64,000 nt of DNA from Nitrosomonadales bacterium (GTDB taxonomy: Bacteria > Pseudomonadota > Gammaproteobacteria > Burkholderiales > Gallionellaceae). The notes beneath the pieces are model-generated. The model was not told the DNA's origin. It saw only the letters and a program-made list of their open reading frames with translations, and searched no databases. Shown here one piece after another: positions 21,015 to 39,182 of the stretch (position 1 is its first letter; each line of letters opens with the position of its first letter). A program made the translations under genes and the position numbers. Where the stretch lies: assembly GCA_016218415.1 (NCBI GenBank), contig JACRED010000035.1:24365-88364 (forward strand), read 5' to 3'.

Positions 21015-21338
21015 ATGAGCTACACCATCAACTACTACAGTGAAGCGCTGCAAGCTGAGATCATGTCTTTGCCCGCCACGTTACAGGCGCGCTATATCGG
21101 GCTGACTGCAAGAATGATGGTGTATGGCGCAAATCTCGGGCAACCGCACACCGAAGCCTTCGGCGACGGATTGTTCGAATTGCGGCTGAAGGGAGCTGAA
21201 GGAATTGCGCGCGTGTTCTATTGCACGCTGGTTGGCCGGCAGATCATCATGTTGCATTGCTTCGTCAAGAAGTCGCAGAAGACGCCGGTCAAGGAACGCA
21301 AGATTGCAGAAAAGCGAATGAAGGAGATAAAGTCATGA
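21015..21338 (+). CDS. RelE/HigB-like toxin (phage Gp49-like family)
   Basis: The 107-residue basic protein has the RelE/HigB fold signature: LPATLQARYIGLTARM near 20-35, LFELRLKGAEGIARVFYCTLVGRQIIMLHCFVKKSQKTP in the C-terminal half, with the Arg/Tyr/Lys/His residues typical of ribosome-dependent mRNA interferases. Gene order is toxin first, antitoxin second, with a four-base overlap (ATGA), the HigBA arrangement. It sits at the edge of an AT-richer accessory region. Confidence 0.9.
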   Translation: MSYTINYYSEALQAEIMSLPATLQARYIGLTARMMVYGANLGQPHTEAFGDGLFELRLKGAEGIARVFYCTLVGRQIIMLHCFVKKSQKTPVKERKIAEKRMKEIKS

Positions 21339-21664
21339 AAACTAAAACCGTGAAGCCAAAAACCGCGAAAACCAAAGTCCTGACCCACGAGAAAATGGTC
21401 GCCAAAATGTTGAAAGACCCTGCGGTGCGCGCCGAGCACGAGCGGCTGAACCGCGAAGAATTTGCCATCCTCGACGAAATACTCGCTGCACGTCGCGAAG
21501 CCGGGCTGACACAGGCGCAGATAGCCGAACGCATGGGCACCCAGGCCCCCGCCATCGCGCGACTGGAAAGCGCCCTCGCCAGCGGCAAGCATTCGCCCAG
21601 CCTGAGCACCCTGCGTAAATATGCCGCAGCATTGGGTAAGCGAGTAGAGGTGCATCTGGTTTAG
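21335..21664 (+). CDS. XRE-type antitoxin (HigA-like)
   Basis: The 109-residue protein has a lysine/threonine-rich N-terminus (MKTKTVKPKTAKTK) and a C-terminal helix-turn-helix (ILAARREAGLTQAQIAERMGT...AIARLES near residues 48-80), ending RVEVHLV. It should neutralise the upstream toxin and repress the operon. AAGGAG at 21320-21325 gives its ribosome site inside the toxin gene. Confidence 0.9.
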   Translation: MKTKTVKPKTAKTKVLTHEKMVAKMLKDPAVRAEHERLNREEFAILDEILAARREAGLTQAQIAERMGTQAPAIARLESALASGKHSPSLSTLRKYAAALGKRVEVHLV

Positions 21665-21939: not shown

Positions 21940-22566
21940 GTGAGCCAAAGCTCTGATACAGAAATTCGGAAAGCCTTTCATGCGCAAAAGCTTAAGGACT
22001 ACCACAATTGTCAAAATACTATTGTGATAGATGAGCTTGGTCTTATTCATGGAAGAAATCGTATTGATATCGCCGTTTTCAATGGATGCCTCCATGGCTA
22101 TGAAATCAAGAGCGCAAAAGACAACCTAGAGCGATTCCCCGATCAGCTGTCTGTTTATAGAGAGTGCTTGGAAAAACTAACATTTGTAGTCGCGCCAAAC
22201 CATTTGGAGGTGGTTTTTTCCATGTCTCCCCAATGGTGTGGAGTATTGTTGGCCGAAAAGGGGCCGCGTGGAGGTATTTCCTTTTCGACTATTCGACGCG
22301 CGCAAAAGAATCCCGAAATTAATCTAGTGTCATTTGCTCACTTGCTGTGGAAGAACGAAGCGATAGAGTTGCTTGGTAAGCTAGGTATTGAACGAGATAA
22401 ACAGAAAGTATCAAGATCTGAACTGTATAAACAACTGACCCAGCTAGTTTCAATTGATGAATTGTCAGTATGGGTTAAAGAGCAATTCATGAAGCGTGAA
22501 ACGTGGCGAGTTGCTCCACAACTTTTACAAGATGGTGGCTCACTCCAACTTGCTTCCAGACAGTGA
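21940..22566 (+). CDS. sce7726 family protein, PD-(D/E)xK nuclease-like
   Basis: The protein resembles the sce7726 family of accessory regions. It has the restriction-nuclease pattern VIDELGLIHGRNRIDIAVFNG...GYEIKSAKD: E, then D in RIDIAV, then E-x-K in EIK, near residues 35-65. This suggests a DNA- or RNA-cleaving fold, though activity is not shown. The frame opens at 21790, but the family-like part begins at a GTG (21940) preceded by AAGGTGG, giving 208 residues. It converges with and overlaps the beta family gene by 80 bp. Base composition is AT-richer than the flanking genes. Confidence 0.75.
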   Translation: MSQSSDTEIRKAFHAQKLKDYHNCQNTIVIDELGLIHGRNRIDIAVFNGCLHGYEIKSAKDNLERFPDQLSVYRECLEKLTFVVAPNHLEVVFSMSPQWCGVLLAEKGPRGGISFSTIRRAQKNPEINLVSFAHLLWKNEAIELLGKLGIERDKQKVSRSELYKQLTQLVSIDELSVWVKEQFMKRETWRVAPQLLQDGGSLQLASRQ

Positions 22567-23563
22567 GATTCCCCGTACCTTCAGCCCCAGACAATGTATC
22601 GCTAATTCTCTTATCACCGCTCGAATAGCCACTTCCGCACCAGTGCACAGAATCTACAATTGATTGGCAGTGCACAGTCATTTGAGACTCATTGCCCCTA
22701 AATGCCGTCCCTTTTGGAACAAACCAAACGCCATCGCCTGTGTAAACAATTTTTCCTGCCGGTTTAACGTGGCGCATATCTAGCTCCAAAAACTCTGGTG
22801 ACTCGATTGCGTAATCACCGAATGAAGGGACTCTGATGCCTTTCAAATCAGTGGCTAGTTGTTGATACAAACCCCATTCGTGCCTCGTTAATTCACCACC
22901 CGGCTTTTTAATTGCAGAAAGCTGCACTGACGTGGCCGCCAACGTAAGAGATCTAAAATTGTTTAGGTCTGCGATCTTTCCTATTGCATTTGTTAAAGCC
23001 TTGGAAAAGGCAGGATAGGGCTCAAACGATTTTGGCTGTTCCAAGTCAATCACAAGATCAACTTGCGAGAAATTCAAACCAAGATAATGCACCAGTCCCT
23101 GCATTTTTGAATTTAGCTCAATGCTCATTAACTCTGGCAATGTAATCCTGATGCAAACACCAATCTTATCTTCGTTAACAATATGTTTTACTAACTTAGT
23201 AAACTCTTCAGTTCTGGATAACTTGACGACTGGAACTGCAATACAGCCGTTTTTCCTTAGCTCTGCAAAGATAAAGTCGATAACTCTCGCACCACCATCC
23301 ATGGATGCAGACTCAAGACTATTATGAATGTCGATGAGAGCTTTTCTTTTCCCCCATTTTGCAAGGAGGCGCTTCGGAAAAGTTTCTACGTGCTCCTGCA
23401 CTGTCTTCTTCGGTCGCGTCTCTTCAAAGTCATACTCCACAGGTGGAATTACTATCAAAGGTACGATAAAGCTTTTCTTTTCCTCATCAAGCCGTGACAA
23501 GGCTTGGTATTCCCCCTGCCTCCATTTCAAAATAGGTACATAGTGACTTACTGTTATGGTCAT
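22487..23563 (-). CDS. Beta family protein (sce7725-like)
   Basis: The 358-residue protein matches the beta family (Pfam Beta_protein), often annotated next to sce7726. It starts MTITVSHYVPILKWRQGEYQAL and shows PLIVIPPVEYDFEE, LVIDLEQPK and a C-terminal WCGSGYSSGDKRIS region. The overall layout suggests an alpha/beta barrel-like fold, but the biochemical function is unknown. It overlaps the upstream protease-regulator gene by four bases and the convergent sce7726 gene by 80 bp at its 3' end. Confidence 0.8.
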   Translation of the reverse strand: MTITVSHYVPILKWRQGEYQALSRLDEEKKSFIVPLIVIPPVEYDFEETRPKKTVQEHVETFPKRLLAKWGKRKALIDIHNSLESASMDGGARVIDFIFAELRKNGCIAVPVVKLSRTEEFTKLVKHIVNEDKIGVCIRITLPELMSIELNSKMQGLVHYLGLNFSQVDLVIDLEQPKSFEPYPAFSKALTNAIGKIADLNNFRSLTLAATSVQLSAIKKPGGELTRHEWGLYQQLATDLKGIRVPSFGDYAIESPEFLELDMRHVKPAGKIVYTGDGVWFVPKGTAFRGNESQMTVHCQSIVDSVHWCGSGYSSGDKRISDTLSGAEGTGNLTVWKQVGVSHHLVKVVEQLATFHAS

Positions 23564-24828
23564 GATGTCTGCCCAATAATCTTCCGTACTTCTCCATGCC
23601 CTAGTAGGTTATTGAGAATGGTGTAGTTATTGCGCTCCTTCCTGATACGACCAGCAAGAATACTTGGGTGGACTCCAAGATTATGCGCATCTACTTCAAC
23701 AGATTCTTCTGAGAGAGAAAACTTCGATAAGCACAATTCCCAAGCCTCGGGAGAGATAAGATGATTTAGGGCGAATTCGTCAGCGTCTTTCTCGATTTCA
23801 TCATTCTGCGAGCTCTTCTCTTCATCAAAAAAGTCCATATGAAGAGAATCAAACAGATGCAAAAATACATGCCCCAATTCGTGGAGTAGCACAAACCAGA
23901 AATTATCTAAGCGATCATATCGGAGAGTTAACGCAATTACTGGGTTGCCAGACTCGGCAAGCATCGCAGCACCATCTAGATAAGTGCCCTTAAGATGCTC
24001 TTCAATGACTAGTATTATTCCCTTTTCAGCGAGAAAATTTCGCACTTTAACTGGCGCGTCCAAGGCGGTAGATAGTTCAACAAGGCTGCTGATCCAAGTA
24101 TCCCTAAAGTCAAACTCACGGGCTATTTCCCCCTTCTGAATTTCTGTTTTAGCTTTTTGTAAGACGCGAGCTTGCCATGCTAATAACGAATATTCGTTAG
24201 GTGAATTTTCGCCATGAAACTTCTTGCGATGCAAAGCTGAGACGAACTGTGGCCCGGCTGTTTGTTCAAAGAAATTCTTGGCTGCCTGAATAGGAGATGA
24301 TTGACCACTCAGGGATAACCATCCTTTTGAGATCATCTCTTTTAGCGGAAATTTTTCCCAGTCAACCGAACTTGAATCTTTCCACGCAAAAATGGAGTTC
24401 GCGGCGACGCTTTCAGCGCCACCCCAAACACCTCGAATGCTTACACCTAAAATCTCTGAAACTTGGATTAATCGGGATAAGCTGGCTCCCATGTAATTTG
24501 TTGCCTCATAACGCTGAATTTGTTGTGCTGTCATCTCAAGTGCACTGCCCAAATCTTTTTGAGACATACCTTTGGCTATTCGAGCCTGAATAAGTATGCG
24601 CGGGAGCATGCTGAGATCAGAACATTCTGTAAATTTCGTATGGCCTTCTTTCAGCAGTTCGAATTCAGTAATTTCTGCTTCTACATCGGAAATTTGGCTC
24701 TGAAGAGCATCAAACTGAGCCTTTACAAGCCATGATGGCTCGTTAGCTTTTTTCAATTCATCAAGAGACGCACGAAGTTTATTCATTTGAGTAATTGAAA
24801 CTTTGTACTGCACCTCGTTGTAAATCAT
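23560..24828 (-). CDS. XRE helix-turn-helix protein with ImmA/IrrE metallopeptidase
   Basis: The 422-residue protein has an N-terminal coiled region (residues 1-65), an XRE helix-turn-helix (ARIAKGMSQKDLGSALEMTAQQIQRYE near 82-108) and a C-terminal ImmA/IrrE protease with the zinc motif HELGH near residue 316 and a downstream acidic DADEFA zinc ligand region. Such proteins cleave or sense regulators and often control mobile or defence genes. It lies in the middle of a three-gene minus-strand operon with four-base overlaps on both sides. Confidence 0.9.
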   Translation of the reverse strand: MIYNEVQYKVSITQMNKLRASLDELKKANEPSWLVKAQFDALQSQISDVEAEITEFELLKEGHTKFTECSDLSMLPRILIQARIAKGMSQKDLGSALEMTAQQIQRYEATNYMGASLSRLIQVSEILGVSIRGVWGGAESVAANSIFAWKDSSSVDWEKFPLKEMISKGWLSLSGQSSPIQAAKNFFEQTAGPQFVSALHRKKFHGENSPNEYSLLAWQARVLQKAKTEIQKGEIAREFDFRDTWISSLVELSTALDAPVKVRNFLAEKGIILVIEEHLKGTYLDGAAMLAESGNPVIALTLRYDRLDNFWFVLLHELGHVFLHLFDSLHMDFFDEEKSSQNDEIEKDADEFALNHLISPEAWELCLSKFSLSEESVEVDAHNLGVHPSILAGRIRKERNNYTILNNLLGHGEVRKIIGQTS

Positions 24829-25304
24829 GGCTGCACTCCTTTATTAGCAACAAAGGATTCATTTCTAAGATCGATCAATACAATTCCTTTAGGTAAGCCC
24901 GTATGACGGTCGGTTTGGAAAAAATCTATAAACGTTTTGCCCGGAGAGGCGAGAAATCCAAAAGGAAACAATTCGCCTTTGAATTTGATCTTTTGGTTTT
25001 GCCGTTTATTCGTGAAATCCAAAAAGACGGGGTCCAACAAAGTTGGATTAACACCAGTTGGATCCCAGCACGCATCGTAATCGCTAGGACAAGGTTTACC
25101 TGTAACGTAGCTGCCATCCAAATATAAAAGCGGACATCCGGCAGCAGAAAGCTTTTCCGCTGCTGCCACCAAGCCCGCAAATAATTCCCTTCGGTACAGC
25201 GTTGTCGCAAAAGTAGCTTCTACCTCCGCAAGAGATGCAGAGTGAATTCCAGGTGGCAGAACTTTCCAAGGACTGGAAGCAAGGTCTTCAAGATTGGGTA
25301 TCAT
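24825..25304 (-). CDS. DUF6932-like, nucleotidyltransferase-like protein
   Basis: The 159-residue protein begins MIPNLEDLASSPWKVLPPGIH. The longer frame to 25418 adds 38 residues that look non-coding and cross a palindrome, so 25304 is preferred. It contains YLDGSYVTGKPCPSDYD near residues 62-78, resembling the GS-x10-D-x-D motif of minimal nucleotidyltransferases. The C-terminal half (KGIVLIDLRNESF) follows. I associate it with DUF6932, seen beside defence genes. It is first in the operon. Function unknown. Confidence 0.75.
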   Translation of the reverse strand: MIPNLEDLASSPWKVLPPGIHSASLAEVEATFATTLYRRELFAGLVAAAEKLSAAGCPLLYLDGSYVTGKPCPSDYDACWDPTGVNPTLLDPVFLDFTNKRQNQKIKFKGELFPFGFLASPGKTFIDFFQTDRHTGLPKGIVLIDLRNESFVANKGVQP

Positions 25305-25306
25305 GG

Positions 25307-25324
25307 CACAACAATAATGTTGTG
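25307..25324 (-). promoter_or_regulatory. Inverted repeat at the head of the DUF6932-XRE operon
   Basis: CACAACAATAATGTTGTG has perfect 7-bp arms around a 4-base spacer and ends two bases before the start codon. Such a site is a natural operator for the XRE protein encoded second in the operon. Confidence 0.6.
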
Positions 25325-25549
25325 TTGCTGTTAAGTCAAGGTATTTATGATATTTATTTAATGAAATTATTATGAATAGGTTAAAGGTGGCATCGCAATA
25401 TTCCTCAGCGCCACCCATTTAACGAATCAACAATCAGTAATAATCAGAGAAAGGAACTAAACGGACCAGGCACGGATTTCCCCGGATTTTTACAAGATGC
25501 GCTCACCCCCGGTATTGCTGAGGGGTGGCAAACCGAGATGGGTTTGTGC

Positions 25550-26269
25550 TCAGTGCAGCGTAGTCGGCGCGCCGCAACACTTCTTGAACTTCTTGCCGGA
25601 GCCGCAAGGGCAAGCCTCGTTGCGGCCGGTCTTGTTGCTGGTGACCGGCATGCCTCCCGGTTGTGCCATGCGTTCATCGGTCGCCGCTTCGCGCTGTTCG
25701 CGGAAGTATTCGTGCAGCATCGATACCCTTTCCGCGATGGACTCGTAGGCGCCCTGTGTGGCGCGCTTCATGTCCTTGCTCTTTTTCAGCAGATCCCAAC
25801 CCGCTTCAGTGCCCAGCAACACCATCGGTGAAACCAGTTCGGGGCGATCATTGAACACCGCATCCCACGGTTCGTTGAACACGGTCGCCCCGAGCATGAA
25901 GCCCATGCACCATCCTTCCGCATCGAAGAACTCGCTGCCGTCTTCCTGTGCCAGTGTGAAGAACAGCGGCTCGTACTGGTCGCTCTCTATCGCTTCCAGT
26001 ACGCTGTTGTAGTGGCGCATGATCAGGCCGAGGATGCGGTTGCCGGTATCCATGGTCGTGAATAAGGGCTCGTTCACACCTTTTTCGGAGTCCCATATCC
26101 AGCGAAAATATTCGCTGGGCTTGATGAGCTGGGGATGCAACACCAGTGAGGCGAAGAAACCGTCCAGCATCGAGATGTCCATCGCGTTTTCCGGCATGTC
26201 GTCCGATAACAGGAAATTATCCAGCTCGTCGAGCTCGTTGTCGTTCAGCGCTTGCGGGGTGTTATGCAT
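25550..26269 (-). CDS. UPF0149/YecA family protein with SEC-C motif
   Basis: The 239-residue protein has a helical UPF0149 domain (ELDELDNFLLS...MDISMLDGFFASLVLHP near residues 12-50 and GWCMGFMLGA near 118) and a C-terminal zinc-binding SEC-C motif (GRNEACPCGSGKKFKKCCG near 215-233). SEC-C tails bind zinc and often contact ribosomes or nucleic acid. Compositionally it belongs to the core genome again, marking the right side of the accessory island. Confidence 0.9.
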   Translation of the reverse strand: MHNTPQALNDNELDELDNFLLSDDMPENAMDISMLDGFFASLVLHPQLIKPSEYFRWIWDSEKGVNEPLFTTMDTGNRILGLIMRHYNSVLEAIESDQYEPLFFTLAQEDGSEFFDAEGWCMGFMLGATVFNEPWDAVFNDRPELVSPMVLLGTEAGWDLLKKSKDMKRATQGAYESIAERVSMLHEYFREQREAATDERMAQPGGMPVTSNKTGRNEACPCGSGKKFKKCCGAPTTLH

Positions 26270-34031: not shown

Positions 34032-34118
34032 GCCGGGGTGATGGAACTGGTAGACGTGCCGGACTCAAAATCCGGTGCCAGAGATGGCGTGGGGGTTCGA
34101 GTCCCCCCCCCGGCACCA
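34032..34118 (+). tRNA. tRNA-Leu (anticodon CAA)
   Basis: An 87-base class II tRNA with encoded CCA. The acceptor stem is GCCGGGG/CCCCGGC, the D arm contains GGAACTGGTAGAC, and the anticodon stem CCGGA/TCCGG closes the loop CTCAAAA (anticodon CAA). A variable arm and a T arm GGGGGTTCGAGTCCCCC follow. The 3' end is the integration site of the element to its right. Confidence 0.96.
34096..34118 (+). repeat. Left attachment repeat (tRNA-Leu 3' end)
   Basis: TTCGAGTCCC and GGCACCA here match the copy at 39191-39207. The tRNA copy contains six additional C residues in between (nine against three), which the tRNA needs for its T and acceptor stems. Confidence 0.8.
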
Positions 34119-34256
34119 CGCAGCAGGTTACCGCAAACCAGCGGAGACCAACACAGACAGGCCATTCCAGCGTTTTTCTGTTTTTTCACACAAGTCTAGT
34201 TTTAGTCCAAAAAGGTCTATTTCGGCCTCCGTTTGGTCACAGTTTGGTCACGATTT

Positions 34257-35282
34257 ATGATCGACTGGGTGACCGCCATCCTTCCATGCAATCACTCCGA
34301 AGCAATTAACGGAGGTCGAATCGCTTGCATCTCTCCTGATGGTGAAATCGAATGGCAGGTCGAAAAAAAACAGCAAGTCTTTGGCTCTCACGAATCCAAC
34401 ATCAGCATCAAATCCAACAGCGCAGACTATCTGTATTTTGACGGCAATCCATCCAAGTGGCTCCAAGGCCATAACCTGTTCGGCTCTGACAACCTCATCG
34501 CACTTATGGAACACGTCATGCACCGCCTGATACCGCTTCTAAAGCTTTCTCCCACCCTAGGTGATATCGAGGCATGGAAAACGGGCAACTATGATCTAAA
34601 ACGCGTGGATTGCACGGCCATGTGGAGTTTGCCAATTCGTGCCGATGTTCGCTCATGGCTACGCGCTGCCGAATTCCAATCAAAGAGTCGCCATGGTCGC
34701 CCAGTAACGAGAGGCGGCACACTTTATTTCGGCCAACATTCGCGGCGCTGGTCTATCAAGTTTTATTCCAAGGGCGATGAACTGGAAGCAACAGGGAAAG
34801 GGCACAAGTTGCCCTATGAAATTCTTCACCGTGACAACCTGATGAAGTGGGCAGATAATAAGCTCCGTGGCGAGTTGACGCTGCGCAGTATCCAGCTCAA
34901 GGAGCTCGAATTAGACCGCGCCAGCAATTGGACGGAAACCACACCGATTGAACGCCTGATGACCTACATAGAGAGTTTAGACATGGCCGAACAATTCAGT
35001 CTTACCCCTGCAATTCTTGATGATCTGCCCGCTCGATTGATTGCAGTTTACAAACTCTGGAAAGATGGAGAGGACTTGCGCGGCATGTATCCCAAAGCCA
35101 CGTTCTATCGCTATCGCAGCGAGTTCCTCAAGCATGGAATAGACATCGCCATTCGTCAGCCATCAACGCCTGATAATGTCATTCCATTGATTCGAGTATT
35201 GCGCCCAGAGGCGATTGAACAAGTTCCAGATTGGGCGATTGGCACATCGCTTTACTTCGATACAAAATTAAAACTGGCTTGA
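34257..35282 (+). CDS. Phage/plasmid replication protein, II/X family
   Basis: The 341-residue protein begins MIDWVTAILPCNHSEAINGGRI and has the SPDGEIEW motif, as in gpII/gpX-type replication initiators of filamentous phages, which nick double-stranded DNA for rolling-circle replication. The frame starts at 34233, but MIDW at 34257 fits the family. Just upstream (34231-34251) the sequence GTTTGGTCAC occurs twice in tandem with an 11-base period, a possible binding site. It is the first gene after the tRNA. Confidence 0.88.
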   Translation: MIDWVTAILPCNHSEAINGGRIACISPDGEIEWQVEKKQQVFGSHESNISIKSNSADYLYFDGNPSKWLQGHNLFGSDNLIALMEHVMHRLIPLLKLSPTLGDIEAWKTGNYDLKRVDCTAMWSLPIRADVRSWLRAAEFQSKSRHGRPVTRGGTLYFGQHSRRWSIKFYSKGDELEATGKGHKLPYEILHRDNLMKWADNKLRGELTLRSIQLKELELDRASNWTETTPIERLMTYIESLDMAEQFSLTPAILDDLPARLIAVYKLWKDGEDLRGMYPKATFYRYRSEFLKHGIDIAIRQPSTPDNVIPLIRVLRPEAIEQVPDWAIGTSLYFDTKLKLA

Positions 35283-35372
35283 GGTTCGGAATTGCTCTTG
35301 GTGCGCCCAAAGAGATGAAACCGGGCACTGGGAAATTGTTTTGCGGCCACCTTTAACAGCATCAAATTACGC

Positions 35373-36860
35373 TCAAAGAATCTGTAAGGATTTAAAAAGG
35401 CCCCGATGAACTACCACCCTCTCATTAAAATTTAGCCTTGCTTCTCGATTCTGATATCGAAACACATAGCGCCCCATCCTGGGATTGTTGCCAATTACAC
35501 TGAATAAATAGAGTACTTGTAAAACGAACTTCACATTTTTTTCCTTAATAAACCCATTTGTCACCTGTGACAAATAGGCATTTTCAATTTCAGCTATTGA
35601 AAAGTTCCATTTTCTAAGCTGAGATATTGCGTCAAATATATTTGAGATATCAGGGAGTATCGCAAATAATTCGTCAGTGAATTCCTCTCTTAGATAATTT
35701 GAAAAAGCCTTATCAACCTTTTTAATTATCTCCGGCGTAATTATTTTTTTCCCATCAGCTGCCTCAGCGCAATTTTGAAGATAGACTACAAAATCACGGG
35801 GACGTAATAACGTACTTCTCGAAATAAAATCAAATGTATTGATTTTGTTTCTTTGCCTACTGCCCATTCCAATTAGCTTGATCCCGAAAACGCGTTTCCA
35901 TGCTTCCTCGAAAGAAAGTACATTTTTACAATTGGGATCGATCGCTCTGGAAAGGCGGAAGGCAATTACCTTCTTCAGCTTTTCTTCATCCCAATTTAAA
36001 TCAACCCTAAAATCTCCCCACTTATTCTTGTCTGCATCCTGAACAAGTTCATAAATATCATCTCGAAGAAAAATGACTGGATAGATTTTGGGACCATCAT
36101 GATTTGAGAAATTCATTCGGACATCTTGCACTGCCTTAAATAGACTAGTGATTAATGATGAATATTGCTGATACTGTTCAGTATTTATTACATCTCGATA
36201 ATCTTCGTCTAATTCATCAAACAAGACGTAGTAAGTTGCCGTCCCAGCATTCTGCATAACTAGATCTTCTAGAAGATCAACATATTCGATCCAGTTTTCT
36301 GGCAAAGTACCTTGTTTCGATACTTTAAAAGATAAGCCGAATAATGAAACTCCAAATTCCTTTCCTATCCATTTATTGATTCTGCGACTTAACGAGGTAT
36401 TGTCATCATATAGTTGTGACAATTCATTTTTAACAGTTACATCAACAGCCTCATTTTTCAGCATTAAACGGCAAATTGTGCTGTAAATTAAAAATTTCCA
36501 AAGCGTTATATATTCATTAGGAGCGGTATATTTCTGATTCTTTTTAGAATAAAGCTCATTAAATGGAAAGTTTTTGAAACTTAACTTCTCGGCAAATACA
36601 TCATATTTTTTTTGCCTATTAAAATATTCGCAAAGAGCTGTTTTACCAGCTCCCTTTCTTCCGATAACAAAATACTTATCCCCTCTTGCTATTTGGTCGA
36701 CTTCTTTTACATGCCAGAAGTATCTGTCATTATCTTCCGCTTTGCCCTCACGTTTCCATGTGGCAATTTCTTGAATTAAAATTTTATCAACATGGGAGGC
36801 GTCCAATTCTTCTAGCTCTTCAGACACAATTGTCAAATCCGAAAAGGTTTGTTCGGTCAT
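35373..36860 (-). CDS. P-loop ATPase of the Sll1717 type
   Basis: The 495-residue protein has Walker A GRKGAGKT at residues 67-74 and a Walker B-like YYVLFDELDEDYRD near 215. An Sll1717-like arrangement follows (YPVIFLRDDIYELVQ, then LRPRDFVVYLQNC near 340). Such ATPases are scattered in accessory regions and some occur near defence genes; no activity is assigned. A TTG at 36872 could extend it by four residues, but GGAG is correctly spaced for ATG 36860. It is strongly AT-rich relative to its surroundings and points opposite to the other element genes, consistent with cargo. Confidence 0.82.
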   Translation of the reverse strand: MTEQTFSDLTIVSEELEELDASHVDKILIQEIATWKREGKAEDNDRYFWHVKEVDQIARGDKYFVIGRKGAGKTALCEYFNRQKKYDVFAEKLSFKNFPFNELYSKKNQKYTAPNEYITLWKFLIYSTICRLMLKNEAVDVTVKNELSQLYDDNTSLSRRINKWIGKEFGVSLFGLSFKVSKQGTLPENWIEYVDLLEDLVMQNAGTATYYVLFDELDEDYRDVINTEQYQQYSSLITSLFKAVQDVRMNFSNHDGPKIYPVIFLRDDIYELVQDADKNKWGDFRVDLNWDEEKLKKVIAFRLSRAIDPNCKNVLSFEEAWKRVFGIKLIGMGSRQRNKINTFDFISRSTLLRPRDFVVYLQNCAEAADGKKIITPEIIKKVDKAFSNYLREEFTDELFAILPDISNIFDAISQLRKWNFSIAEIENAYLSQVTNGFIKEKNVKFVLQVLYLFSVIGNNPRMGRYVFRYQNREARLNFNERVVVHRGLFKSLQIL

Positions 36861-37416
36861 CGATATCTCCAATGGTTTTACAAAAATATTATTTTGCTAA
36901 GCGCAAAATATCCCCGGTCAAGTTACGCGGGGGGCTATAAATACATAATCGGCAATTTAGCAGCAAAACCCCCTACACACCATAGGAACTATCTCCGAAG
37001 CCCCCGCCGTGTTCTTAACGGCACTTGTTATCCGTCTCCGCCTTACCAAATATCCGCATCAGCCGACGCCGCGCAGCGGAAACAGGAGGGGCTTTCTGGT
37101 GTGGATTTTGGTCAGTATGCGCCGCCAGTTAAGGCCGAAGGCAACTACCCTCCTGCAAGTTGGTTTTTGGTGAGTTATACACGGCATGAATTCAATCTAG
37201 CGCTTCATTGATCGCCAAGTCACAACCGAGCACCGGACGGACGGTGGCGCAGCCGCCGCCCGCCCGTAGCGCAGGGTGTGAAAGTGCGTATAGGTGATAC
37301 TGCACTTTTGTCTCATTTTGAGACTATCACCCCAAATTCCAGAAAAAACCGAAGCCCAAGACTGGTTGTTGAAGTCCCCTTAATGGAGTATCGTTCCAAT
37401 ACCTTGGGAGGCCACA
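36861..37416. other. Long intergenic region of the element
   Basis: The 556 bases between the ATPase and the next gene hold no convincing gene. A frame at 36849-37211 lacks a ribosome site and family features. The right part contains several inverted repeats, listed separately. It may contain the replication origin and the promoters of the divergent genes; this is inference. Confidence 0.6.
37281..37331. promoter_or_regulatory. Nested inverted repeats in the element
   Basis: GGTGATA (37293-37299) pairs with TATCACC (37325-37331) and encloses GTCTCA/TGAGAC (37310-37315, 37319-37324). AAAGTGC/GCACTTT (37281-37287, 37302-37308) offers an alternative stem. Such structure suits a protein-binding operator or an origin. 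Confidence 0.6.
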
Positions 37417-37803
37417 ATGACCATATCTGAAGAAAAGCGCATCCAAATCAATCGAAGCAAACTTACTCCCTTATCTGCCGAAAAGCTGAAACAACTGCAA
37501 GAAGTTGAGCTGGAAGCAATAGCCCGGTTTTCAGGTGCACTTGATGAGTTGGAAACTGCGATCGGCTTTCTCCATATTGGCTTTCAGTTTGGATGGAAAC
37601 CTCTTGCCTTGACCCATAGCAAAAAGACTTTTCGTAAATATGAAGAAATACTAGGCGTCGATCTCAAAGAGCTGCTTCCTGAAACAACGCCAGCCTCAGA
37701 CCGGCACAGGGGTTACTCTATAGCCAAAAAGCTATCCAATTTCTGGAAGGTTGTTAATGGTGAAGAGAAAATAGATCACAAGAGGGAAATCAGCCCAAGT
37801 TAG
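37417..37803 (+). CDS. Unknown protein of the element
   Basis: The 128-residue protein begins MTISEEKRIQINRSKLTPLSAEKLKQL. It has no signal, membrane helix or recognised motif. GGGAGG at about 37406-37411 is a good ribosome site. It lies upstream of the excisionase and integrase genes and could be a regulator or accessory recombination factor, but I cannot support a specific role. Confidence 0.65.
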   Translation: MTISEEKRIQINRSKLTPLSAEKLKQLQEVELEAIARFSGALDELETAIGFLHIGFQFGWKPLALTHSKKTFRKYEEILGVDLKELLPETTPASDRHRGYSIAKKLSNFWKVVNGEEKIDHKREISPS

Positions 37804-37866
37804 TGGGACTTGACATTCCATCCGAAAATCTCCAATATGGGATATCACGTCCCATCAGGGGGTTTT

Positions 37867-38046
37867 ATGAAGTGGGTTCTAATCAAAAAAGTCGTTGAGT
37901 TAATCGGCTATACTGAAGATGCCATTCGCGCCAAGATCAAAAAAGGCGTGTGGCTTTGTGGCATTCACTGGACCAAAGCACCTGACGGCCGCATCTTGTT
38001 CAATATCGAGGCTATACAGCTATGGATAGAAAACAAGCAGGTGTAA
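37867..38046 (+). CDS. Excisionase-like DNA-binding protein
   Basis: The 59-residue protein (MKWVLIKKVVELIGYTEDAI...KKGVWLCGIHWTKAPDGRILFN...IQLWIENKQV) is a small winged-helix protein like excisionases that direct the integrase. The frame opens at 37810, but ATG 37867, preceded by GGGGG, gives the usual start. It overlaps the integrase gene by 25 bases. Confidence 0.82.
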   Translation: MKWVLIKKVVELIGYTEDAIRAKIKKGVWLCGIHWTKAPDGRILFNIEAIQLWIENKQV

Positions 38047-39182
38047 GGGCTAAAAGCGCCAAGGGCATCGAGATTGATTTCTACTATCAAGGCAAACGCT
38101 GCCGCGAGACTATCAAGCTCCCACCCAATAAGGCCAATCTCAAATTTGCTGCTGATAAACGCTCAGCCATCCACCATGAAATAGCTATTGGCACATTTAA
38201 CTATGCCGAGCATTTTCCGAATAGTCGCCACGCTTCCACCCTCGGCAAACTGACCAATAAAACGGTTGGTGAGGCATTGGAAGACTTTCTCCAGAACACG
38301 CAAAGAAAATACGAAGCCAGCACACTGCGCGGCTACAAGAGCGCAATTTATTACCACCTCATACCTGCATTTGGTGACACCCCAATTCGCAAGATGACTA
38401 CCAGCGGCATCAAGGAATGGATGAATAGCTTGCCGATTTCGGGCAAGCGCATTAACAATGTCCTGATCCCCTTGCGCATCGTGTTAAGCGATGCTTATCT
38501 GGATGGACTAATCGACAGCAACCCTGCCGACCGGGTAAAAAATGTTCCGCATCGCTACGATGAACCGCAGCCATTCAAACCGGATGAAATGCGCCTGATT
38601 CTGGAAAACTGCACCCCGCAAACCCGTAACCTTTTCCAGTTCGCATTCTGGTCTGGTTTGCGCACATCCGAATTGATTGCCCTTGAGTGGGGCGACATTG
38701 ATTTCGAAAAGGGAGTCATCCGCGTTAGTCGCGCCAGCGTCAAACGAATCACGAAGCAACCAAAAACACATGCCGGAAAGCGGGAAGTCTTGATTCTTCA
38801 ATATGCGCTCGATGCATTGGAACGCCAGAAAGCGTTCACTTTTGCGCTTGGAGGCCAGATTTTTCACAATCCAAAAACAAACAAACCTTGGGATACTGAC
38901 AACCAGATTCGTGAAAGGGCATGGCTTCCGGCGATAACTGCCGCAGGCGTAACCTACCGCAACCCTTATCAAACACGGCACACCTATGCTAGTATGCTTC
39001 TTTCCGCTGGTGAGAACCCGATGTGGGTTGCCCAGCAGATGGGTCATGCCGATTGGGCTATGATTCGTAAGCGTTATGGGCGTTGGAAACCGGAAGTCGA
39101 TAAGACGGCTGGGAGCAGAGTAACACTGCAATGGTCACAGAATAGTCACGGTAGTCGCCAACTACTTGATTGTTCGCCATGA
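38022..39182 (+). CDS. Tyrosine recombinase (integrase)
   Basis: The 386-residue phage-type integrase has an N-terminal arm-binding domain (IEIDFYYQGKRCRETIKLP), a core-binding domain (EALEDFLQNTQRKYEASTLRGYKS near 88) and a catalytic domain with Arg214 (SGLRTSELIALEWGDI), Arg319-His320 in TRHTYAS and the nucleophile Tyr352 in RKRYGRW. It ends eight bases before the right attachment repeat. It should integrate the element into the tRNA-Leu gene. Confidence 0.93.
   Translation: MDRKQAGVRAKSAKGIEIDFYYQGKRCRETIKLPPNKANLKFAADKRSAIHHEIAIGTFNYAEHFPNSRHASTLGKLTNKTVGEALEDFLQNTQRKYEASTLRGYKSAIYYHLIPAFGDTPIRKMTTSGIKEWMNSLPISGKRINNVLIPLRIVLSDAYLDGLIDSNPADRVKNVPHRYDEPQPFKPDEMRLILENCTPQTRNLFQFAFWSGLRTSELIALEWGDIDFEKGVIRVSRASVKRITKQPKTHAGKREVLILQYALDALERQKAFTFALGGQIFHNPKTNKPWDTDNQIRERAWLPAITAAGVTYRNPYQTRHTYASMLLSAGENPMWVAQQMGHADWAMIRKRYGRWKPEVDKTAGSRVTLQWSQNSHGSRQLLDCSP

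Follow-up and report, generated by a model that had tools for sequence, protein, structure and literature searches.

PD-lambda-2 and P4 gop-beta-cII are the closest described relatives of the four-gene cassette considered here, which occupies positions 21940-25324 of a 64,000-nucleotide stretch (hereafter the window) of a Nitrosomonadales bacterium of the Gallionellaceae (contig JACRED010000035.1, positions 24,365 to 88,364). PD-lambda-2 is reported to protect against lambda vir, its B protein being toxic by itself, an effect relieved by the HigB-like A protein, with C needed for defence (Vassallo et al. 2022, PMC9519451), and gop-beta-cII is reported to protect against lambda and P1 (Rousset et al. 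2022, PMC9122126; these and the other papers cited are drawn on in part). For fusions of an XRE regulator to a COG2856 protease, it has been proposed that the protease cleaves the XRE repressor, possibly an antitoxin (Makarova et al. 2009, PMC2701414). To judge from sequence, the cassette joins relatives of PD-lambda-2 B and C with the beta/cII pair of gop-beta-cII, and its kinship with proven anti-phage systems is very likely. We lean, by a small degree, towards reading it as a conserved, likely mobile unit that acts by abortive infection of the toxin-antitoxin type, with the predicted nucleotidyltransferase DUF6932 in the toxin slot.

The cassette consists of four intact open reading frames that fill an AT-rich stretch (G+C 42-44% at 22-25 kb, compared with ~60% in the sequence before):

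21940-22566, plus strand: sce7726, 208 aa, GTG start; relative of P4 cII and predicted PD-(D/E)xK-type nuclease
22487-23563, minus strand: beta, 358 aa; beta-family protein, predicted TIM barrel
23560-24828, minus strand: XRE-ImmA, 422 aa; XRE regulator fused to an ImmA/IrrE (M78) metalloprotease
24825-25304, minus strand: DUF6932, 159 aa; predicted minimal nucleotidyltransferase
22487-22566, opposite strands: 80 nt shared by the 3' ends of the beta and sce7726 frames

On the minus strand DUF6932 is followed by XRE-ImmA and then beta, each junction being a 4-nt overlap, and sce7726 converges on them from the plus strand. The sequence-only reading of this DNA had described four AT-rich genes in a compact convergent unit, which is borne out in that all four are intact and belong to the families it named; the EIK of sce7726 and the HELGH of ImmA that it picked out are likewise present.

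XRE-ImmA corresponds to PD-Lambda-2_B (PADLOC, 1.6e-81, residues 149-419), and beta, which lies downstream of it with the 4-nt overlap, to PD-Lambda-2_C (PADLOC, 4.9e-47). As in PD-lambda-2, a single operon places a small gene first, then the XRE-ImmA fusion, then beta. However, the first gene of the cassette is DUF6932 rather than a HigB-like A gene: the PD-Lambda-2_A model finds no match at E <=1 among eight window proteins, and the HigB proteins of two other loci (L019, L020) match it at 7.1e-50 and 1.4e-19. The XRE of the cassette also differs from the HigB-type one in its N-terminal domain, its operon has a different operator, and the convergent sce7726 that accompanies DUF6932 loci was found in only one of three HigB-beta loci (L115). 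We note that this locus (in genome G321) combines HigB-type PD-lambda-2-like genes with a convergent sce7726, showing that cII-like proteins can accompany the HigB type.

With P4 gop-beta-cII the cassette shares a beta and a cII/sce7726 gene facing each other 3' to 3', an sce7726 that matches the PADLOC cII model at 1.4e-25, and PF14350 in both beta proteins, although the PADLOC beta model reaches only 1e-05. The two beta proteins are ~20% identical, and DUF6932 and XRE-ImmA together occupy the place of gop; the gop model, which recovers P4 gop itself at 4.8e-70, has no match in the eight window proteins. The cassette had been called undescribed, a term that holds for the DUF6932 slot and the combination but not for the remainder, since described systems account for three of the four families. 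The defence role suggested at the same time is now better supported, as XRE-ImmA and beta match PD-Lambda-2_B and _C, sce7726 matches cII, and both parent systems stop phages.

Conserved co-occurrence of the four families is also found: the convergent unit recurs with the same layout at 15 further loci, or 12 once the near-copies L012-L014 are set aside (one, L006, is broken), and the possibility that it is unique to the window is therefore rejected. The hosts are alpha-, beta- and gammaproteobacteria, with some copies on plasmids. A protein search of genome contigs returned seven loci (L001-L007), five of which, on contigs labelled Sulfuricella, Gallionella, Methyloprofundus, Halomonas and Rhodobacter, hold all four genes in the same layout; in L006 the unit is broken up with other frames between the pieces, and L007 is a distant locus with only XRE-ImmA and a weak beta. 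DUF6932 of L004 runs into the contig end, and beta of L005 seems to carry a frameshift. The unit is present as well on Sinorhizobium (including pEm1132a of S. meliloti 1132), Agrobacterium, Rhizobium and Marinibacterium plasmids (L009-L014), on one IMG/VR contig (L029) and in two more genomes (G179, G658). Viral contigs yielded no relative when searched with single proteins, and L029-L031 when searched with alignments, L029 and L031 being one contig. In 10/10 loci examined, including the window, the oppositely transcribed beta and sce7726 genes share 35-83 nt at their 3' ends. Of the 16 DUF6932-XRE-ImmA-beta loci as fetched, 15 have sce7726 converging on beta; in the remaining one (L016) it lies beyond an insertion. 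This last locus is on an Acinetobacter plasmid (NZ_CP014478.1), where beta is split by the blaNDM-1-bearing insertion near Tn7-like transposition genes.

The sequences indicate that the four genes are under purifying selection, dN/dS against L001 being ~0.09-0.15 with dS >1 and near saturation. Across 10 loci, the distances of the four proteins are correlated in each of the six pairings (r 0.73-0.92; permutation p <=0.0005 throughout), a signal that common descent of linked genes would also give; L012-L014 (near-copies of L010), L004, L005, L006 and L016 were left out of both the selection and the co-divergence test. Among 76 genomes of the window's genus, sce7726 occurs in two, beta in three and DUF6932 in five (four over the cut-off). 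All three occur together in two, the window's and G811, the latter being the assembly of L002 (200 identical bases) and thus no independent case. In 369 genomes of the class, DUF6932 is present in five and beta in eight, side by side in two (the window's and G179); the PD-Lambda-2_B model matched 131 of these genomes, many of them partially (often only at model positions 1-125), and the resulting count was therefore set aside. QueF and SMC are adjacent in 20/20 genus relatives fetched, with a QueF match in 57/61 genomes (own included), and since neither ComEC and UPF0149 nor the cassette genes were detected in the fetched QueF-SMC stretches, no clean empty site is demonstrable. The patchy distribution in the genus, together with the recurrence elsewhere, indicates that the unit is accessory and appears to move as a block. 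In a PADLOC scan of eight proteins near four cassettes, defence genes stand beside two of the four: L010 has GajB of Gabija (1.3e-175) and a DRT-type reverse transcriptase (1.7e-155) as neighbours, and L006 has a type I restriction enzyme, AbiEi and AbiEii.

The features that tie DUF6932 to its regulator, together with the two catalytic motifs, are as follows:

25074-25115, minus strand: predicted catalytic motif G64 S65-x9-D75-x-D77 of DUF6932, conserved in alignments
23869-23883, minus strand: HELGH zinc-protease motif (XRE-ImmA residues 316-320), with HExxH conservation
24595-24828, minus strand: XRE-ImmA residues 1-78, an N-terminal domain predicted to bind DUF6932 as its partner
25308-25323: predicted palindromic operator ACAACATTATTGTTGT, just upstream of DUF6932
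25311-25339, minus strand: promoter-like TTGACT-17-TATTGT, second hexamer inside the operator

DUF6932 matches PF22014 (3.8e-30). The minimal nucleotidyltransferase (MNT) family is marked by a GS...DxD motif, more fully hG[GS]-x9-13-Dh[DE], and the motif of DUF6932 fits this pattern. It is invariant as GS-x9-DxD in 39/39 and 55/55 aligned DUF6932 sequences, most of which are at least 55% identical to the window's protein. The predicted fold may be weakly similar to that of MNT proteins, and no sequence-level relative was found in the PDB at E 0.1. A literature search naming DUF6932 found no paper, most subscription papers and bioRxiv preprints lying outside its scope.

XRE-ImmA contains a helix-turn-helix (HTH) domain (PF01381, 3.3e-08) and an M78 domain (PF06114, 3.2e-08), and a PDB sequence search with it found nothing. 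Of 24 XRE-ImmA proteins examined, 23 retain HExxH. The remaining one is an orphan (L015) with a DUF6932-type N-terminus, HQLGH in place of HELGH and no detected DUF6932, which is probably decaying. A profile built from residues 1-78 of six XRE proteins of the window's type recognises 25/26 DUF6932-partnered XRE proteins versus 0/10 HigB-partnered ones. Counted per 70%-identity cluster, the domain is present in 19/20 versus 0/8, and with the seed clusters removed in 15/16 versus 0/8; the limit of at least 15 bits was chosen after the scores had been seen, the lowest accepted score being 15.3 and the highest HigB score 0.3. XRE-ImmA proteins that lack an A gene carry the domain in one of four cases (L015), and the tblastn alignments of L007, L017 and L018 extend into the N-terminus, so that these proteins may hold a diverged form of it.

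The operator follows the same division. ACAACN6GTTGT lies within 60 nt upstream of DUF6932 in 17/26 loci (14/23 without L012-L014), compared with 0/9 HigB loci, and the operator-bearing loci span alpha- and betaproteobacteria to cyanobacteria. The 284 kb of examined loci contain 18 copies, all within the 17 positive loci. In the window the pattern has a single match (7/100 shuffles have one), and the 16-mer, allowing at most one mismatch, has a single match in the 2.5-Mb assembly. Promoter-like sites in the region are not above chance in number; this one was placed by the operator, and TTGAC stands at the equivalent place in several relatives. The conserved palindrome points to autoregulation, and we take the operator and the N-terminal domain as two findings that, by sequence comparison, bind DUF6932 to its regulator.

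DUF6932 is also paired with short, protease-free XRE proteins (L027 and L028, 172 aa each; L111, 137 aa), where it is the sole recognisable enzyme and, for that reason, is favoured as the effector. In addition, a second recurring operon (L023-L026, L106) combines DUF6932 with a different XRE-ImmA (~480 aa), DUF4186 and a radical SAM-like protein. It is found on plasmids from cyanobacteria and alphaproteobacteria as well as in one genome, with ACAAC-N6-GTTGT upstream in four of five cases. Because DUF6932 accompanies both the short XRE proteins and a different XRE-ImmA, its constant link is with the N-terminus and HTH of the XRE protein and not with the protease, the remaining partners being exchangeable.

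Beta matches PF14350 (1.3e-73); its TIM-barrel match, from the predicted structure, is too general to name an activity, and a PDB sequence search gave two marginal matches (E 0.02-0.026). Sce7726 matches NF033832 (7.5e-46), and 12 residues, among them E32, R41, D43, E55 and K57, are invariant in 16/16 sce7726/cII proteins including P4 cII. PD-(D/E)xK nucleases use D...ExK as catalytic residues, a pattern that D43, E55 and K57 of sce7726 fit.

From what is seen directly, namely the gene families, their layout and recurrence, the purifying selection, the conserved palindrome and the intact motifs, we infer a mechanism that borrows the proteolytic-release model from the XRE-COG2856 proposal (PMC2701414). 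XRE-ImmA would bind the palindrome over the promoter and repress DUF6932-XRE-beta, and its XRE N-terminal domain would hold DUF6932 inactive. On infection, which the TIM-barrel protein beta probably helps to sense, the ImmA protease would be switched such that the XRE hold is lost. The freed DUF6932 may then transfer a nucleotide to cellular RNA or protein, halting growth before phage release, whilst sce7726, expressed from its own promoter, would contribute as a nuclease, either attacking phage nucleic acid or modulating the alarm. The least certain parts of this scheme are the identity of the toxin, the nature of the trigger and the role of beta.

Several observations weigh against this interpretation. 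DUF6932 was detected in 17 of 398 genomes of the phylum, and of its 18 places there (own included) an XRE partner was found in five (own, L095, L099, L100, L106) but not in the other 13, which means that PF22014 alone is no marker of the cassette. In 12 of these 13, the gene that follows DUF6932 encodes a 302-334-residue protein. Near L111, a frame on the other strand resembles an ImmA protease by eye, weakening the case of that short pair. The neighbour scan gave no match for one L009 protein or for two window proteins at 34-37 kb, ~10 kb from the unit. PDC-M63AB, a PADLOC candidate system whose A model is a weak match to DUF6932, showed no defence in E. coli NILS69 in one phage test (PMC12409345). 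Finally, the PD-lambda-2 result, in which B is toxic and A rescues, points in the opposite direction to DUF6932 as the toxin.

We observed that the DUF6932 proteins standing directly before the 302-334-aa protein (L094, L096-L098, L101-L104, L107-L110, L112) form a second clade, and it is possible that the two constitute a two-gene system. The partner, tested in L097 only, had no Pfam or PADLOC match, and a single profile comparison of the XRE N-terminus with that of the ~300-aa DUF6932 partners was unconvincing (probability 15%, E 0.0018).

MNT antitoxins add a nucleotide to HEPN toxins, and the roles within the cassette could by analogy be reversed, with XRE-ImmA as the harmful protein and DUF6932 as its antitoxin, acting for example by adding a nucleotide. 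The toxicity of PD-lambda-2 B alone and its rescue by A (PMC9519451) argue directly for this arrangement. However, DUF6932 pairs with protease-free short XRE proteins (L027, L028, L111) beside which no other enzyme is recognisable, which makes it the better toxin candidate, and the conserved link runs to the XRE N-terminus and HTH rather than to the protease. We therefore regard reversed roles as unlikely, albeit as the most serious competitor to DUF6932 as the toxin.

Two further explanations concern the purpose and the extent of the unit, and both seem to us improbable. One is that the unit serves mainly the persistence of the mobile DNA that carries it, through addiction or repression, with phage defence a side effect or absent. 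Several copies do lie on plasmids or near integrases/recombinases, ImmA/XRE pairs are reported to regulate mobile elements (PMC2701414), and the absence of measurable defence by PDC-M63AB would be in keeping with such a role; yet the frames flanking L001 resemble ordinary genes by eye, and beta and sce7726 are common to two phage-stopping systems. The other would confine the functional system to DUF6932-XRE-ImmA-beta and make sce7726 an independent neighbour, as might be expected from its opposite strand, the lack of an operator copy and the frequent failure of tblastn to find an sce7726 gene in DUF6932-less XRE-ImmA-beta loci (L007, L017, L018, L116, L117, L119). Against such independence stand its convergence with beta in all but one of the 16 loci above and also with beta of P4, Rac-SA53, L118, L120 and one HigB-type locus, as well as its distances, which track those of XRE-ImmA best of the six pairs (r 0.92). 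We retain the four-gene, toxin-antitoxin-type defence unit with DUF6932 as the presumed toxin.

The cassette is flanked by a ComEC-like gene (labelled by eye from sequence) and a Gp49/HTH pair on one side and by UPF0149 and QueF genes on the other, and no flanking direct repeats of note were found around it. The Gp49/HTH pair (21015-21664), a Gp49-type RelE-like toxin with its HTH antitoxin, adjoins the cassette in what looks like coincidence. Its toxin was not found in L001-L007, and the pair is therefore treated as a separate neighbour. As a stand-in for the missing PD-lambda-2_A it was rejected, being of another family and on another strand, without a match to the A model, in addition to that absence. 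The UPF0149 gene (25550-26269) matches PADLOC PDC-S12 (5.1e-46), but was rejected as a cassette member, because it encodes a UPF0149/SEC-C protein and occurs in stretches of two genus relatives that have no detected cassette gene. Further along the window, 34032-39182 is a likely filamentous-phage prophage beside tRNA-Leu, with a replication protein G2P (34233-35282; PF05144, 2e-63), an AT-rich part at 35-37 kb and a phage integrase (38022-39182).

In seven papers that touch on four of the five subjects nucleotidyltransferase, ImmA, XRE, toxin-antitoxin and phage defence, neither titles nor the openings of abstracts name the cassette, the search extending to few subscription papers or bioRxiv preprints. 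Three described arrangements resemble it in part. In the COG2856-XRE modules, too, a small toxin-like gene shares its operon with an XRE-protease fusion, and proteolytic release has been proposed for them, but their partners are RelE and PIN proteins with no nucleotidyltransferase, and beta and sce7726 go unmentioned in the portion of that paper drawn on (PMC2701414). MNT-HEPN modules have a small nucleotidyltransferase with GS...DxD, which the predicted fold of DUF6932 may weakly resemble; there the partner is a HEPN protein, whereas that of DUF6932 is an XRE protein. PDC-M63, the two-gene candidate mentioned above, has an A model that matches DUF6932 weakly (4.8e-07), but no second-gene PDC-M63 model matched any of the eight window proteins, and it probably belongs to another DUF6932 clade.

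What is new in the cassette is the DUF6932 slot with its matched XRE N-terminal domain and operator, the rest belonging to described systems. DUF6932, a family of unknown function, thereby gains a likely role, and the N-terminal domain and operator offer defence finders a signature by which to recognise the DUF6932 variant, which a PD-lambda-2 rule requiring a HigB-type A gene, if used, would overlook. More tentatively, we suggest that DUF6932 could found a new class of toxin-antitoxin effector, a nucleotidyltransferase caged by an XRE N-terminus, and that an exchangeable head (DUF6932, HigB or gop) might sit on a chassis of XRE-ImmA, beta and convergent sce7726, such that PD-lambda-2, gop-beta-cII and the cassette would form one modular superfamily with swappable toxins. 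PD-lambda-2 and gop-beta-cII, although described separately, share a chassis, and the cassette is a link between them.

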